DNA of 64,000 nt, from the NCBI RefSeq assembly GCF_022227845.1, contig NZ_JAJNQN010000016.1, positions 1 to 64,000 of the forward strand, written 5' to 3'. Made by a program: the position numbers and the translations under genes. Below are positions 30,335 through 37,004 of the stretch, piece by piece (within the stretch, counting starts at the first letter, position 1; each line of letters opens with the position of its first letter). Source of the stretch: Ectothiorhodospira lacustris (lineage in GTDB: Bacteria > Pseudomonadota > Gammaproteobacteria > Ectothiorhodospirales > Ectothiorhodospiraceae). Under the pieces are notes generated by a model. The model was not told the origin of the DNA. It did not search any database and worked only from the letters and a program-made list of their open reading frames with translations.

Positions 30335-33232
30335 ATGCCCGAAAAGCCCCGCACCGCCGCGTCCCGCAACGGGACCGAAGCCCTCAAGATCCCCCCCCAT
30401 TCCATCGAAGCCGAGCAGGCCGTGCTCGGTGGCCTGATGCTGGAAAACGATGCCTGGGACACGGTCTCCGACCATGTGGCCGAGGTGGATTTCTATCGTC
30501 ATGATCATCGCCTGATTTTCCGTACCATCGCCGAGCTGGCCAACCGCCAGGCCCCCTTCGATGTGGTGACCATTTCCGAACGCCTGGAGGCCCACGGCGA
30601 GCTGGAAGAGGCCGGTGGCCTGGCCTATCTGGGCCTGCTGGCCAAGGACACCCCCAGTGCCGCCAACATCCGCGCCTATGCGGATATCGTGCGCGAGCGT
30701 TCGGTGCTGCGTCAGCTCATCAGTGTGGGCACGGGCATCGCCGACAGCGGGTTCAATGCCCAGGGCAGGGAGAGCCGCGAACTGCTGGACGAGGCAGAGC
30801 GCCGGGTGTTCGAGATTGCCGAGCAGGGTGCGCGCAACCGTCAGGGTTTTCGCGGCATGCGTACCCTGCTCAAGTCCACGGTGGAGCACATCGAGCTGCT
30901 CTTCGAGCGGGACAACCCCATCACCGGCCTGTCTACGGGCTATGACGACTTCGACGAGATGACCTCCGGCCTGCAGGCAGGGGACCTGGTGATCGTAGCG
31001 GGACGACCGTCAATGGGCAAGTGCATCATGGCCGGGTCCAGGCTGGTCGATCCGCAGACCGGCGCCTTGGTAACCATCGATGAGCGGGTGGCTCGCCGTC
31101 AGGCGGATTTGCTGACCCTGGGGGAGGATTTTCGCTTGCGCAAGGGGCAGGCCACGGCTTTCGTGGATGACGGCATCAAGCCTGTCTATCGGGTCCGGAC
31201 CGCCAGTGGGCGCGAGATTTCCACAACCCTGACCCACCCCTTCCTCACCGGATCGGGTTGGCGGCCATTGGGGGAGATTCAAGTGGGGGAGAAGGTCGCG
31301 GTGCCCCGCTGTATTCCAGTGTTTGGGAAGACATGGATGCCGAGTCATGAAGTGAAGACACTGGCGTATTTTATCGGTGATGGGGGTACCACCCAGACAT
31401 GCCCGATTTTTACCAACACGAGCCCTCGCCTGCGTGAAGATTTTACTGATGCAGTGAGTGGTTTTGCCGGTATGACTTGCAAACTCATCGCCGATATGAC
31501 CCGTGCTCCCTCCATGCGTGTCAGTCGTGATCGGGATTATCTGATTCAGGCACGGGCACGTTTTGCTTCTGCCCTGAGACGTGTGCAGTCCGATTTTGAA
31601 ATCACTGGGGATTACCTGGCCCGAGTTTTGGGGGTTAGCAAGGCCACGGTCAGTTATTGGCGATCCGGGCAGTCCATGCCCATGGGTATCCACTTCGAAC
31701 GCTTGTGTGATGTGTTGTCCTTGTCACCCGCGGATCTTGGTGTGGATGCTCACGAACATGTTTCGAAAAACAGCCCTAATCCGGTGCGTCGCTTTCTTGA
31801 AAGACATGGTGTATGGGGGGGCTCGGCGCTGGAAAAGGATATCCCTAGCGTCATTTATACCCTGGAACGAGACTCCTTGGCCCTGTTCATCAATCGTCTG
31901 TTTGCCTGCGATGGCAGCGCCTTTGTTCAGGCCAATGGGCAGGGGCGTATCAGCTATGCTTCTTCCAGTCCTCTTCTGGTCCGGGGGGTACAGCACTTGC
32001 TGCTTCGGTTCGGTATTCTGAGCAAGGTGCGGATCAAGAAAAACGCCTATCCGAGGTTACGGCGTTCACCCATGGAACTGGAGGTCCTGGATCAGGAAAG
32101 CCTGCGTCGTTTCATTCGTGAGATCGGCATCTTCGGTAAGGAAGTTGCCTTGGCGAAGCTGGATGCGCTATTGGCGAACAAGCGTCCGCATACCAATCTG
32201 GATACATTGCCTCTGAGTGTGAATACCTATGTGCTGGCTAGAAAGGGTGAAAAGAGCTGGCGTGAATGGCATCAGCAGGCAGGGCTGGAATGCCCGCCCG
32301 GTTTCAACCCTCACCTGGGGGGCAGGGGAAGCAGAGGGATTTCCCGTGTCCGCGCCGGGCGGTTGGCGGGGATTCTTGATGATGGCTATTTGGCCAGTCT
32401 GTCAACTTCAGATATTTACTGGGATGAAGTCGTCTCCATCGACTATCAGGGTGAACATCAGGTTTATGACCTGACGGTAGAGGGTACGCACAACTTCATT
32501 GCCGAGGATTTTTGTGTCCATAACACCACCTTCGCGATGAATATCGCCGAATATGCGGCGCTGAAGCAGAAGTCGCCGGTGGCGGTGTTCAGTATGGAAA
32601 TGCCCGGCGAGCAACTGTCCATGCGTCTGCTCTCCTCGCTGGGAAGAATCAATCAGCAGCGTCTGCGTACCGGGCGTCTGGAAGATGATGACTGGCCGCG
32701 TTTTTCCAGTGCCGTGTCCATGCTGTCCGAGGCACAGCTGTATATCGACGACAGTCCGGCGCTGTCTCCCTCCGACCTGCGTTCCCGCTGCCGCCGGCTG
32801 ATGCGAGAGCACAAGCAGCTCAGCCTCATTGTGGTGGACTACCTGCAGCTGATGCAGGTACCCGGCAGTTCGGAGAACCGAACCAACGAGATTTCCGAGA
32901 TCTCCCGCGGCCTCAAGGCCCTGGCCAAGGAAATGGGGGTCCCCGTGATCGCCCTTTCCCAGCTCAATCGAGGTCTGGAGCAGCGTCCCAACAAACGCCC
33001 GGTGATGTCGGATCTGCGTGAATCCGGCGCCATCGAACAGGATGCGGATCTCATCGTCTTCATCTACCGGGATGAGGTCTACAACGATGACAGTCCGGAC
33101 AAGGGCACCGCGGAGATCATCATCGCCAAACAGCGTAACGGCCCCATCGGTGCCGTGCGGCTGACCTTTCTGGGCCAGTACACCCGCTTCGAAAACTACG
33201 TGCCCGAAATCTATTCCAACGAGGGTTTCTAG
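30335..33232 (+). CDS. dnaB: Replicative DNA helicase DnaB with an intein
   Basis: DnaB is the ring helicase that unwinds DNA at the replication fork. The frame encodes 965 residues because a 501-residue intein interrupts it; removal leaves a 464-residue helicase, the normal size. The N-terminal domain (about 20-125, IPPHSIEAEQAVLGGLML) and the RecA-like ATPase are both complete. The intein lies after Lys229 of the Walker A motif GRPSMGK, with the extein resuming TTFAMNIAEYAA. The remaining motifs are intact (VDYLQLM, LSQLNRGLE, MSDLRESGAIEQDAD). Unspliced protein would lack ATPase activity. The stop overlaps the alr start. Confidence 0.96.
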   Translation: MPEKPRTAASRNGTEALKIPPHSIEAEQAVLGGLMLENDAWDTVSDHVAEVDFYRHDHRLIFRTIAELANRQAPFDVVTISERLEAHGELEEAGGLAYLGLLAKDTPSAANIRAYADIVRERSVLRQLISVGTGIADSGFNAQGRESRELLDEAERRVFEIAEQGARNRQGFRGMRTLLKSTVEHIELLFERDNPITGLSTGYDDFDEMTSGLQAGDLVIVAGRPSMGKCIMAGSRLVDPQTGALVTIDERVARRQADLLTLGEDFRLRKGQATAFVDDGIKPVYRVRTASGREISTTLTHPFLTGSGWRPLGEIQVGEKVAVPRCIPVFGKTWMPSHEVKTLAYFIGDGGTTQTCPIFTNTSPRLREDFTDAVSGFAGMTCKLIADMTRAPSMRVSRDRDYLIQARARFASALRRVQSDFEITGDYLARVLGVSKATVSYWRSGQSMPMGIHFERLCDVLSLSPADLGVDAHEHVSKNSPNPVRRFLERHGVWGGSALEKDIPSVIYTLERDSLALFINRLFACDGSAFVQANGQGRISYASSSPLLVRGVQHLLLRFGILSKVRIKKNAYPRLRRSPMELEVLDQESLRRFIREIGIFGKEVALAKLDALLANKRPHTNLDTLPLSVNTYVLARKGEKSWREWHQQAGLECPPGFNPHLGGRGSRGISRVRAGRLAGILDDGYLASLSTSDIYWDEVVSIDYQGEHQVYDLTVEGTHNFIAEDFCVHNTTFAMNIAEYAALKQKSPVAVFSMEMPGEQLSMRLLSSLGRINQQRLRTGRLEDDDWPRFSSAVSMLSEAQLYIDDSPALSPSDLRSRCRRLMREHKQLSLIVVDYLQLMQVPGSSENRTNEISEISRGLKALAKEMGVPVIALSQLNRGLEQRPNKRPVMSDLRESGAIEQDADLIVFIYRDEVYNDDSPDKGTAEIIIAKQRNGPIGAVRLTFLGQYTRFENYVPEIYSNEGF
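31022..32524 (+). mobile_element. DnaB intein (501 aa) with LAGLIDADG endonuclease and internal HTH
   Basis: The intein starts at Cys1 (CIMAGSRLVDPQTG) and ends HN, followed by Thr+1. Splicing blocks are intact: A with Cys1; B with TLTH (residues 69-72); F with VYDLTVEGTHNFIAEDF (481-497); and G with CVHN (498-501). Homing-endonuclease motifs LAYFIGDGG (114-122) and LALFINRLFACDG (286-298) carry acidic residues at the expected catalytic places. Between them, about 180-242, lies an XRE-like helix-turn-helix (DYLARVLGVSKATVSYWRSG). Codon use is more AT-rich than the flanking exteins, which suggests a foreign origin. It is predicted to splice and probably to home. Confidence 0.95.
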
Positions 33233-34366: not shown

Positions 34367-35605
34367 ATGGAAAAGGCGGCTTCAAACAGCGACAGCACCT
34401 ATATCGCCCGGCAACCCATCTACAACCGGCAACTGGGTGTCTATGCCTATGAGCTGCTGTTCCGTTCCGCATCCAGCCTCCGGTCGGCCACCGGCAGCGA
34501 TGCGGCGACCTCCCATGTCATTTTGAGCGTCTTCGGCGAAATCGGTCTTGATACCCTCGTCGGCTCCCGTCTGGCGGCCATCAATATGACCCCGCGCCTG
34601 CTCAGGGAGTTGGAATCCCTGAACGTGCCCGCCGGGCGGCTGATCGTGGACCTGCCGCCCGACCTGCCGGGGGATGAAGCCACCCTGGAGACCCTCAAGC
34701 GACTGGCCGGCAGGGGCTATATCCTGGCCCTGGACGATTATGTCCCCGGCGGTGCCGGGGACCGTCTCCTGCCCGCGGTGCACCAGGTGAAGGTGGATAC
34801 GGCCCGGGCCAGGCCGGACGAGCTGCGGTCTGTCCACCGATTGCTTTCCCGCCATGATGTGAGCATCGTGGCTGAAAAGGTGGAATCCCTGGAAGATTAT
34901 GAGTTTCTTCGTGATCTGGGTTTCCACTATTTTCAGGGCTATTTTCTCAGCCGTCCACGGCTCTTCAAGGCGATCGGCCTGGAGGCCGGAAAGCTCACCG
35001 TAGTGCGCTTGCTGGCCGGTCTGCAGGACCCGGCCCTGGATGTCCACCAGTTGCAGCATCTCATCGCTCAGGATGCCGGTCTGGCGGTCAAACTGCTGCG
35101 GCTGATCAACTCGCCGTTCTTCGGTCTGAGCCGGGAGGTGGATTCCCTGGCCCGGGCCATCCTGATCCTGGGACGCCGCAAGCTGGCTACCTGGGCCTGC
35201 ATGCTGGTGATACGAGGATTGGCGGATCGTCCGGCGGGATTGGTGCAGCTGGCCTTGGAGCGGGCTGCCTTGTGCGAGGGCCTGGCCCGCCGCGCCGGCC
35301 TGGGTCCGGTGGAAAACTACTTCACCTGTGGCCTGTTCTCCGCCCTGGATCTGATCATGGAGCGCCCCCTGGAGCAGATCATTCAGCCGTTGCCCCTGGG
35401 GGATGCGGTCAAGGCAGCCTTGCTCCGGGGGACGGGGGAAATGGCCGAGGCACTGGCTTGTGCCCGGGCCTGCGAGCAGGGCGATATCGAGGCGGCAGGC
35501 TGTGCCGGACTGTCCACCACCGACATCAGCGAGGCCATGCTGGAAGCGGGCCATTGGGCTGATGAAGTCCTGTCCATGTCGCTGACGGGCAAGCCCAGGC
35601 ATTGA
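34367..35605 (+). CDS. EAL-HDOD signalling protein with degenerate EAL (CdgJ type)
   Basis: The 412-residue protein has an N-terminal EAL-like domain (about 10-200) and a C-terminal HDOD domain (about 205-400). The EAL motif is replaced by YELLFRS and the usual catalytic acidic residues are not in place, so c-di-GMP cleavage is unlikely; binding or scaffolding is more probable, as in CdgJ-like proteins of Vibrio that affect motility. The start at ATG 34367 gives homology from TYIARQPIYNRQL. The stop overlaps the metZ promoter -35. A second HDOD protein lies 2.7 kb downstream. Confidence 0.88.
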   Translation: MEKAASNSDSTYIARQPIYNRQLGVYAYELLFRSASSLRSATGSDAATSHVILSVFGEIGLDTLVGSRLAAINMTPRLLRELESLNVPAGRLIVDLPPDLPGDEATLETLKRLAGRGYILALDDYVPGGAGDRLLPAVHQVKVDTARARPDELRSVHRLLSRHDVSIVAEKVESLEDYEFLRDLGFHYFQGYFLSRPRLFKAIGLEAGKLTVVRLLAGLQDPALDVHQLQHLIAQDAGLAVKLLRLINSPFFGLSREVDSLARAILILGRRKLATWACMLVIRGLADRPAGLVQLALERAALCEGLARRAGLGPVENYFTCGLFSALDLIMERPLEQIIQPLPLGDAVKAALLRGTGEMAEALACARACEQGDIEAAGCAGLSTTDISEAMLEAGHWADEVLSMSLTGKPRH

Positions 35606-35645
35606 CACTTCGCAATCGTTTTTCCAGAATCAAGGGAATCCCTTG
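35602..35645 (+). promoter_or_regulatory. Sigma-70 promoter of metZ with palindrome at the start point
   Basis: TTGACA (35602-35607) and CAGAAT (35625-35630) are 17 bases apart, a strong promoter, with the -35 overlapping the end of the upstream gene. The predicted start (about 35637) lies in a perfect 15-base palindrome, CAAGGGA-A-TCCCTTG (35631-35645), which could be an operator or the 3' hairpin of the upstream mRNA. Confidence 0.75.
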
Positions 35646-35681
35646 CCCTGTAGCCGGTTCCCGATGCATTCAGGCAGGTGG

Positions 35682-35737
35682 ACAGCGCCGATTTGATTCC
35701 AGCTTGCGGGCGCTCAAGAAATACGGCTAAAGCGGGT
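35682..35737 (+). ncRNA. SAM-II (SAM-alpha) riboswitch aptamer upstream of metZ
   Basis: AGCGCC (35684-35689) and GGCGCT (35709-35714) form P1. The loop carries GATTTGATTCC then AGCTTGCG, and the 3' strand carries CGGCTAAAGCGGG (35724-35736), which are the conserved elements of the SAM-II class found before metX/metZ genes. The loop CCAGCTT can pair with AAGCGGG to make the H-type pseudoknot. The aptamer begins about 45 bases after the predicted start and is followed by a terminator, so SAM should switch metZ off. Confidence 0.85.
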
Positions 35738-35740
35738 GAC

Positions 35741-35767
35741 GACCTGCTTTGGCGGGTCTTTTTCTTT
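35741..35767 (+). terminator. Intrinsic terminator of the metZ riboswitch, with antiterminator
   Basis: GACCTGC (35741-35747) pairs with GCGGGTC (35752-35758), loop TTTG, followed by TTTTTCTTT. The alternative 9-base stem AAAGCGGGT (35729-35737) with ACCTGCTTT (35742-35750) would block it. The same AAAGC is part of the SAM-binding pseudoknot, so ligand binding and antitermination are mutually exclusive. Confidence 0.85.
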
Positions 35768-35798
35768 GCCCGACGGGGCGGGTGTTACAGGAGTGCCC

Positions 35799-37004
35799 AT
35801 GTCCCATCCTCTGGATACTTCCGGTTCCCGTCGTCCCGGTTTCGATACCCTGGCCGTTCGCGCCGGTCAGACCCGCACGGCTGAACAGGAACATTCCGAT
35901 CCCATCTTCGCCACCTCCAGCTTCGTCTTCGCCAGTGCCGCGGAGGCGGCGGCCCGGTTTGCCGGCGAGACGCCGGGTAATATCTACGCCCGCTTCACCA
36001 ATCCCACGGTACGTGCCTTTCAGGACCGCCTGGCTGCCCTGGAAGGGGGGGAGGCCTGCGTGGCCACGGCGTCCGGCATGTCGGCGATCCTGTCCACCTG
36101 TCTGTCCCTGCTCAGGGCGGGGGACCACATCATCTCGTCCCGGTCCGTGTTCGGTTCCACCACCAACCTGTTCAGCAATTACCTCACCCGCTTCGGTATC
36201 GAGGTCAGTTATGTGCCCCTGTCGGATCTGGAGGCCTGGGCGCGGGTCCTGCGCCCCAATACCCGGATGCTGTTCGCCGAGACTCCCTCCAATCCGCTCA
36301 CCGAACTGGTGGACATCCGTGCCCTGGCGGAATTGGCCCATACCCACGACTGCCTGCTGGCGGTGGATAACTGTTTTTGTACCCCGGTCCTGCAGCGTCC
36401 CCTGAGCCTGGGGGCGGATCTGGTGATCCATTCTGCCACCAAGTATCTGGATGGCCAGGGCCGTTGCGTGGGTGGCGCCGTGGTCGGAGATGCGGAACGG
36501 GTGGGCAAAGAGGTTTTCGGTTTCTTGCGTACTGCCGGTCCCACCATGAGCCCCTTCAATGCCTGGGTCTTTCACAAGGGGCTGGAAACCCTGCCCCTGC
36601 GCATGCGTGCCCATAGCGCATCCGCCCTGACCCTGGCCCACTGGCTGGAGAAGCATCCGGCGGTGGAGAGGGTGCATTATCCCGGTCTGGCCTCCCATCC
36701 CCAGCATGCCCTGGCTGCCCGTCAGCAGGCCGCCTTCGGCGGCATTGTCGCCTTCGAGGTGAAGGGGGGCCGGGAGGCGGCCTGGCGGGTGATCGACAGC
36801 ACGCAAATGCTCTCCATCACCGCCAACCTGGGAGATGCCAAGACCACCATCACCCATCCTGCCACCACCACTCACGGACGCATCACGCCCGAGCAGCGGG
36901 TGGAGCAGGGGATTGTTGAAGGGCTGGTACGGGTGGCCGTGGGGCTGGAAGACCCGACGGATATCCAGGCGGATCTGGCCCGCGGACTGGATAGCCTGTG
37001 CTGA
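35799..37004 (+). CDS. metZ: O-succinylhomoserine sulfhydrylase
   Basis: MetZ makes homocysteine directly from O-succinylhomoserine and sulfide, bypassing cystathionine. The 401-residue PLP enzyme of the Cys/Met metabolism family has the [19 protein letters not shown]-terminus typical of Met[12 protein letters not shown]-like [13 protein letters not shown], and the PLP-lysine [11 protein letters not shown]. The ATG at 35799 has AGGAG at 35789-35793; the frame upstream is riboswitch, not protein. A SAM-II riboswitch controls it. Direct sulfhydrylation suits an organism that handles much sulfide; this is inference. Confidence 0.92.

Follow-up and report, generated by a model that had tools for sequence, protein, structure and literature searches.

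The question raised by this locus is whether the leader of metZ on a 64,000-nucleotide stretch of DNA from Ectothiorhodospira lacustris (the whole of which is hereafter called the window) is a riboswitch of the SAM-II class that acts on transcription, and whether such an element is out of the ordinary in a gamma-proteobacterium. We infer the ligand, the switching and its direction, and give a probability of roughly 0.86 to the reading that the element is a SAM-II riboswitch which would turn metZ off at the level of transcription. Its parts (Table 1), its homology to known elements, its conserved structure and the mutual exclusion of its two hairpins are observed directly.

Table 1. Features of the metZ leader and its surroundings, in window coordinates
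Feature	Position	Strand	Basis or remark
Sigma-70-type promoter TTGACA-17-CAGAAT	35602-35630	+	Scan and sequence; shares bases with the stop codon of the ORF before it
Aptamer stem P1	35684-35689 with 35709-35714	+	RF00521 match; two-sided changes in all six pairs
P2 pseudoknot, 5' strand TCCAGCTTGC	35698-35707	+	A35701 bulged; pair counts on alignments A1 and A4
P2 pseudoknot, 3' strand GCTAAAGCGGG	35726-35736	+	By analogy, GCTAAA would contact SAM
Antiterminator hairpin, 12 pairs, loop GACG	35726-35753	+	35726-35737 with 35742-35753; -18.7 kcal/mol
Intrinsic terminator	35741-35767	+	Stem 35741-35747 with 35752-35758; tail TTTTTCTTT at 35759-35767
Post-terminator stretch GCCCGACGGGGCGGGT	35768-35783	+	Identical in 6/6 genus copies except one base in one copy
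metZ, O-succinylhomoserine sulfhydrylase	35799-37004	+	NCBIfam NF006003, 710 bits (cut-off 522)
RF02424 Bp2_287 match	35689-35770	-	24.2 bits (cut-off 70); strand opposite metZ

The initial annotation had named metZ as the target and had placed a consensus promoter ahead of the element, and the analysis bears out both statements. The gene is identified by its NCBIfam match, its closest named MetZ proteins are those of Ectothiorhodospira haloalkaliphila (85%) and E. marina (84%), and its Shine-Dalgarno sequence, AGGAG, lies at 35789-35793. The promoter matches the consensus at 10 of 12 positions and is the sole one in 35300-36000, where shuffled sequences give a mean of 0.1; in the five relatives that were read, TTGACA and a -10-like hexamer are also present upstream of the element. 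The gene order is alr, an ORF of EAL/HDOD type (assigned by eye, the NCBIfam EAL matches being weak only), metZ, and a glycerate-kinase-like gene that scores below the cut-offs of its models. Elsewhere in the window, at 30335-33232, an ORF of 965 aa reads as a dnaB-like replicative helicase, in which an intein-like insert can be seen by eye after GRPSMGK.

The SAM-II-type aptamer that had been proposed is supported by P1, the pseudoknot P2 and the pocket strands. The Rfam model RF00521 (SAM_alpha) covers 35675-35751 over the full model, with an E-value of 8.4e-6 for the 241 bases searched and of 2.7e-5 for the whole genome, in which the only second place has an E-value of 4.9. A match to SAM_alpha does exist, but at 32.0 bits it stays under the curated cut-off of 36, which is why Rfam, applied with its curated cut-offs, reports one tRNA in the window and no riboswitch. 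The SAM-II long loop model RF01726 scores 16.3 bits in the window against a cut-off of 44 (E 0.99). We file the element as a SAM-II member because of its structural features (P1, P2, the tertiary pair, the pocket strands) and its genes, although the bit cut-off is missed. Folding of 35681-35765 gives z = -2.66, with 1 of 200 shuffles equally good. The SAM contacts of the GCTAAA strand are taken from the comparison between SAM-V and SAM-II in Huang and Lilley 2018 (PMC6061858), passages of which describe the ligand contacts of SAM-V as virtually identical in SAM-II.

Behind the aptamer, the pseudoknot strand doubles as the first arm of an antiterminator, as the initial annotation had stated: the 9 bases AAAGCGGGT (35729-35737) pair with ACCTGCTTT (35742-35750), and the helix extends to 12 pairs. 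The terminator, with its stem at 35741-35758 followed by the T-rich tail, is likewise found as described; its hairpin, GACCTGC-TTTG-GCGGGTC, has an energy of -10.2 kcal/mol. Positions 35742-35753 are common to both hairpins, which are mutually exclusive. A terminator scan taken alone is not significant (two found, 0.6 expected in shuffles).

In the proposed mechanism, RNA polymerase would start a few bases after 35630 and would synthesise the aptamer (35684-35736) first. With SAM bound, the pseudoknot P2 would hold GCUAAAGCGGG (35726-35736) and block the antiterminator, and the terminator hairpin together with the U tract would end transcription near 35767. With SAM scarce, 35726-35737 would pair with 35742-35753, no terminator would form, and metZ would be transcribed. 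When left free, the RNA of the window is predicted to fold as P1 plus the 12-pair antiterminator, and with both P2 strands held it gives the terminator; in the folding model, the terminator is the expected outcome of SAM binding, as had been claimed.

Conservation within the genus is a stronger argument than either folding or the terminator scan that the element is not due to chance. RF00521 finds it in 8 of the 47 genomes of the family, six within the genus and two outside, with one of the 47 (G001, 41.9 bits) exceeding the cut-off. Within the genus, metZ is present in 10 of 10 genomes and the riboswitch in 6 of 10. In these six carriers the spacer from promoter to P1 differs in both sequence and length, and 35684-35783 is nearly invariant. 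There are exceptions to this near-invariance: in G007 the 3' arm of the terminator is changed without compensation (-3.2 kcal/mol with the P2 strand held). Furthermore, G003 and G009 have AAAUC in place of AAAGC, at the cost of one pair in P2 and one in the antiterminator. In the four genus genomes that lack the riboswitch (L258, L262, L263 and L264), metZ follows close behind the apparent end of alr, and the EAL/HDOD-type gene between the two is also absent, judged by eye; L262 and L263 retain a promoter-like TTGACA despite the absence of the riboswitch. These four loci are natural alleles for comparison.

The stretch that follows the terminator (35768-35783) is conserved in the genus as strongly as the aptamer, though it lies outside the switch model. 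A pairing of post-terminator sequences (often GUGCCYGC) with the 3' arm of the terminator was considered and dropped. Co-changes can be seen by eye, and 9 of 122 copies beat all 20 shuffles; with a mean of 12.7 against 11.5 in shuffled sequences, the pairing is hardly above chance and is therefore not claimed.

The structure is also conserved at larger distances. Alignment A1 comprises 30 gamma-proteobacterial aptamers from the genus, the family and named MetZ loci, and from it we built a model, R1, that contains P1 only, P2 being left out. In A1, 93.5% of the cells are paired and 4 of the 16 pairs show two-sided changes; in alignment A4, with 108 distinct copies, 91.8% are paired and two-sided changes occur in 10 of 16 pairs, uncorrected for kinship. 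The covariation score of A4 is 0.180, compared with 0.076 when shuffled and at most 0.073 in slid versions, and of five measures tested, four were reached by none of 500 shuffles and the fifth by one. The P1 counts of A4 (96.5% of cells paired, two-sided changes in 6 of 6 pairs) lean on the alignment model, which includes P1, and the P2 counts do not: P2a is paired in 100% and P2b in 84.4% of cells, and three P2b pairs show two-sided changes. The outer P2 pairs are weak, 23-69 being unpaired in 37 and 24-68 in 20 of the 108 copies. The tertiary pair 35-55, which links the final base of the P1 loop with a position further downstream, is GC in 102 copies and AU in 4, with one other combination and one gap. 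Among 110 aligned copies, GCTAA is present in all and the last A in 109, and the ligand-pocket strands UUU, UUGC and GCUAAA show no variation or almost none. Two further positions change together: the base that follows GAUUU and the one two before UUGC are G/G in 150, A/A in 12, and G/A, A/G and T/A in one each of the 165 copies that remained after a check of P1 (3 of 168 were dropped). Sections of Barrick and Breaker 2007 (PMC2258182) describe for SAM-II a Watson-Crick pair at the end of the P1 loop and a homopurine G-G/A-A co-change; in our reading, the co-changing positions and the tertiary pair found here are those published.

The platform behind the aptamer recurs as well, consisting by eye of an antiterminator strand CUGCUUURGC, a terminator and a long U tract. 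A U tract lies within 130 nt of GCUAAA in 122 of 166 distinct copies and is missing from that range in the other 44, many of which are second copies of tandems. Counting helices of at least 7 pairs, 111 of the 122 copies with a U tract have a terminator and 94 an antiterminator. The antiterminator score of these copies averages 18.5, compared with 13.1 in shuffles, and all 20 shuffles were beaten by 54 of the antiterminators and 51 of the terminators. Folding energies, calculated for 121 platforms, give a clean switch in 22. In 85 the terminator wins whether or not the first ten bases (the P2 strand) are held, 12 form both hairpins when free, and 2 have no terminator even when held. With a clean energy switch in only 22 of 121, switching in most copies would have to be kinetic, unless the simple model leaves something out. 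The window, with its clean equilibrium switch, is therefore not typical, and in the other copies the outcome would have to depend on the order in which the RNA is made.

The genes behind the element are mostly genes of methionine metabolism. We took 100 further regions and, for each copy, the longest downstream ORF of at least 120 codons, which yielded 126 different proteins; two copies had no such ORF. The MetZ/MetY family (O-succinylhomoserine sulfhydrylase and relatives) accounts for 88 of the 126 at E <= 1e-20: 83 are at least 55% identical to one MetZ, and five are at 43-44%, one of which (L132) tests as MetY. In a cluster of ten other ORFs, the one tested is MetK over the cut-off, and in a cluster of three, the one tested is MetF over the cut-off. 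Among single ORFs, one matches MetX above the cut-off; others have MetE (a fragment), MetN or CysB as their best match, in each case below it.

The element is widespread in the class. In a sample of 369 class genomes, drawn evenly over families from a larger group, 198 have an R1 match at E <= 0.01, a limit at which a few matches arise by chance; this count is not independent of A1, because R1 was built from such genomes. RF00521 places 30 of the 369 over its cut-off and 136 at E <= 0.01. Thirty of 80 named MetZ loci have an R1 match at E <= 0.001, upstream of metZ and on the same strand, the match of L070 being partial and some loci having little upstream sequence. Among 120 genomes sampled from the phylum, 24 have an R1 match, a lower share than in the class sample. 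Fourteen of the 24 lie outside the class, so that the element is not specific to gamma-proteobacteria. SAM-II is thus common in gamma-proteobacteria, and Rfam's cut-off hides most copies there. Pfam MetJ was found in only 4 of the 369 class genomes and was absent from the genome of the window; G184, which is among the four, matches R1 weakly (E 1.5e-4). The idea that MetJ and the riboswitch exclude each other was dropped, four genomes being too few.

How far do other explanations account for these data? The aptamer could mainly control translation or mRNA stability, with the terminator as a constant brake, as in S. meliloti metA, for which parts of one report (PMC9373788) describe a terminator downstream of a translational SAM-II switch. 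The 85 platforms in which energy favours the terminator, P2 held or not, would suit such a brake, but in most copies with a U tract P2, the antiterminator and the terminator have a strand in common; and the Shine-Dalgarno sequence of the window, 53 bases past P2, has no strand in common with it. We regard this explanation as improbable. It is very improbable, in our view, that an RNA of the SAM-II fold works the same terminator switch with another ligand, such as SAH or a related compound. The weak outer P2 pairs might point to such a variant, and variants of riboswitch classes with altered ligands exist (SAM-I to spermidine, in the text excerpted from PMC10853860); on the other side stand the invariant or nearly invariant strands of the SAM pocket and the predominance of methionine genes among the targets.

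A chance resemblance or a decayed remnant is hardly credible. The score below the Rfam cut-off, the damaged copies in relatives and the absence of the element from 4 of 10 genus genomes are what one would expect of a remnant, but aptamer and platform are near-invariant within the genus, R1 matches more than half of the class sample, and two-sided changes occur in both P1 and P2. The element of the window is a genuine leader of the SAM-II type, a kind already known, and very probably a transcriptional switch.

The initial annotation had regarded SAM-II elements as mainly alphaproteobacterial and mostly translational, and a transcriptional one in a gammaproteobacterium as notable. The first view is not supported by Corbino 2005, Barrick and Breaker 2007 and Huang and Lilley 2018, and the second fails since gamma-proteobacterial examples were reported in 2007. 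Passages of Corbino 2005 (PMC1273637) mention putative terminators after many SAM-II RNAs. Those of Barrick and Breaker 2007 place SAM-II also in gamma-proteobacteria and Bacteroidetes, associate it in alpha- and beta-proteobacteria most often with regulatory terminators, and treat the gamma-proteobacterial cases as isolated, perhaps acquired by transfer; in those of Huang and Lilley 2018, translational SAM-II riboswitches are a minor subset. According to sections of Leyn 2014 (PMC4239095), SAM_alpha was found only in Rhizobiales and Rhodobacterales.

The features that sections of Corbino 2005 give for RF00521/SAM-II recur here: P1, P2, the strands GAUUUGA, CUUGC and GCUAAA, methionine genes, a terminator downstream and a nearby promoter. 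Unlike RF00521, the copies in our survey mostly have GCGCC/GGCGC as P1 and weak outer P2 pairs, and most of them fall under the cut-off. The SAM-II element of S. meliloti metZ, for which parts of PMC9373788 give a predicted termination and a short RNA that increases under high-SAM conditions, has the same gene and the same predicted logic (SAM leads to the terminator, and a short RNA is released), but an alpha-proteobacterial host. Taken alone, the window would thus add one more transcriptional SAM-II riboswitch; the interest lies in the gamma-proteobacterial breadth, in published elements without a ligand and in the tandem copies.

Two published elements are concerned. Sections of Leyn 2014 present metXZ, a new beta-proteobacterial element upstream of metX or metZ, with no ligand given there; its pseudoknot, of regions 1-4 and 2-6, has the SAM-II topology and is followed by a terminator. 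We found a SAM-II-like copy before metX in the genome G152 (L136) and, by eye, five loci in the family of G152 with such a copy before similar starts. The MetX of G152, compared with named plasmid records, gave no match above 60% identity and no clear home, so this family is only presumed to be beta-proteobacterial. The beta-proteobacterial metXZ, which we know from its description rather than its alignment, is probably the same riboswitch. The other element is RF02424, filed as an sRNA gene and compared here via weak matches only: it exceeds its own cut-off in none of the 369 class genomes (64 weak matches) and in none of 80 genomes of the G152 family (12 weak matches). On the transcript strand of the window, RF02424 membership was not found. 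Of the 22 RF02424 places tested, namely the 10 best class loci and one locus for each of 12 genomes of the G152 family, 15 coincide with R1 (10/10 and 5/12), all 15 on the opposite strand. Excerpts of the 2012 study of Burkholderia sRNAs (PMC3521395) locate Bp2_Cand287_SIPHT ahead of methionine genes (a figure shows metX and metZ), propose a cis element, give its range as Burkholderiales, gamma- and delta-proteobacteria, and do not name SAM-II. Judged by these matches, RF02424 seems to have been filed on the wrong strand of a SAM-II element. In the open-licence papers searched, we found none that links metXZ or RF02424 to SAM-II, which is weak evidence of absence; as far as searched, it is new that RF02424 would be the opposite strand of this element and metXZ probably the same riboswitch. 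RF02424 and, probably, metXZ can thereby be given a ligand hypothesis.

A joint reading, which we put forward as tentative and on balance slightly doubtful, would be that a beta- and gamma-proteobacterial branch of SAM-II with the recurring platform is among the commonest methionine controls of that class and largely unannotated, that it explains metXZ and RF02424, and that its tandem form has moved to genes not known to have a part in methionine metabolism, a single genome holding up to ten matches.

Tandem SAM-II-like copies were observed at L232-L242; in those read, the first copy is followed by a terminator-like hairpin and a U tract. Tandem SAM-II riboswitches have been described before, 44 of them in a 2022 study on tandem riboswitches (PMC9481103). 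Counted from the copy closest to the gene, an ATG with a Shine-Dalgarno-like stretch follows after 63-74 nt in all 10 tandems and in 3 of the 4 single copies examined, a count based on ORFs of at least 40 codons and without a chance control. The downstream genes include one for a MoxR-type ATPase, one, second in order, for a PD-(D/E)XK nuclease, and five whose proteins match nothing in Pfam. The genomes G291 and G403 have ten and six R1 matches, respectively.
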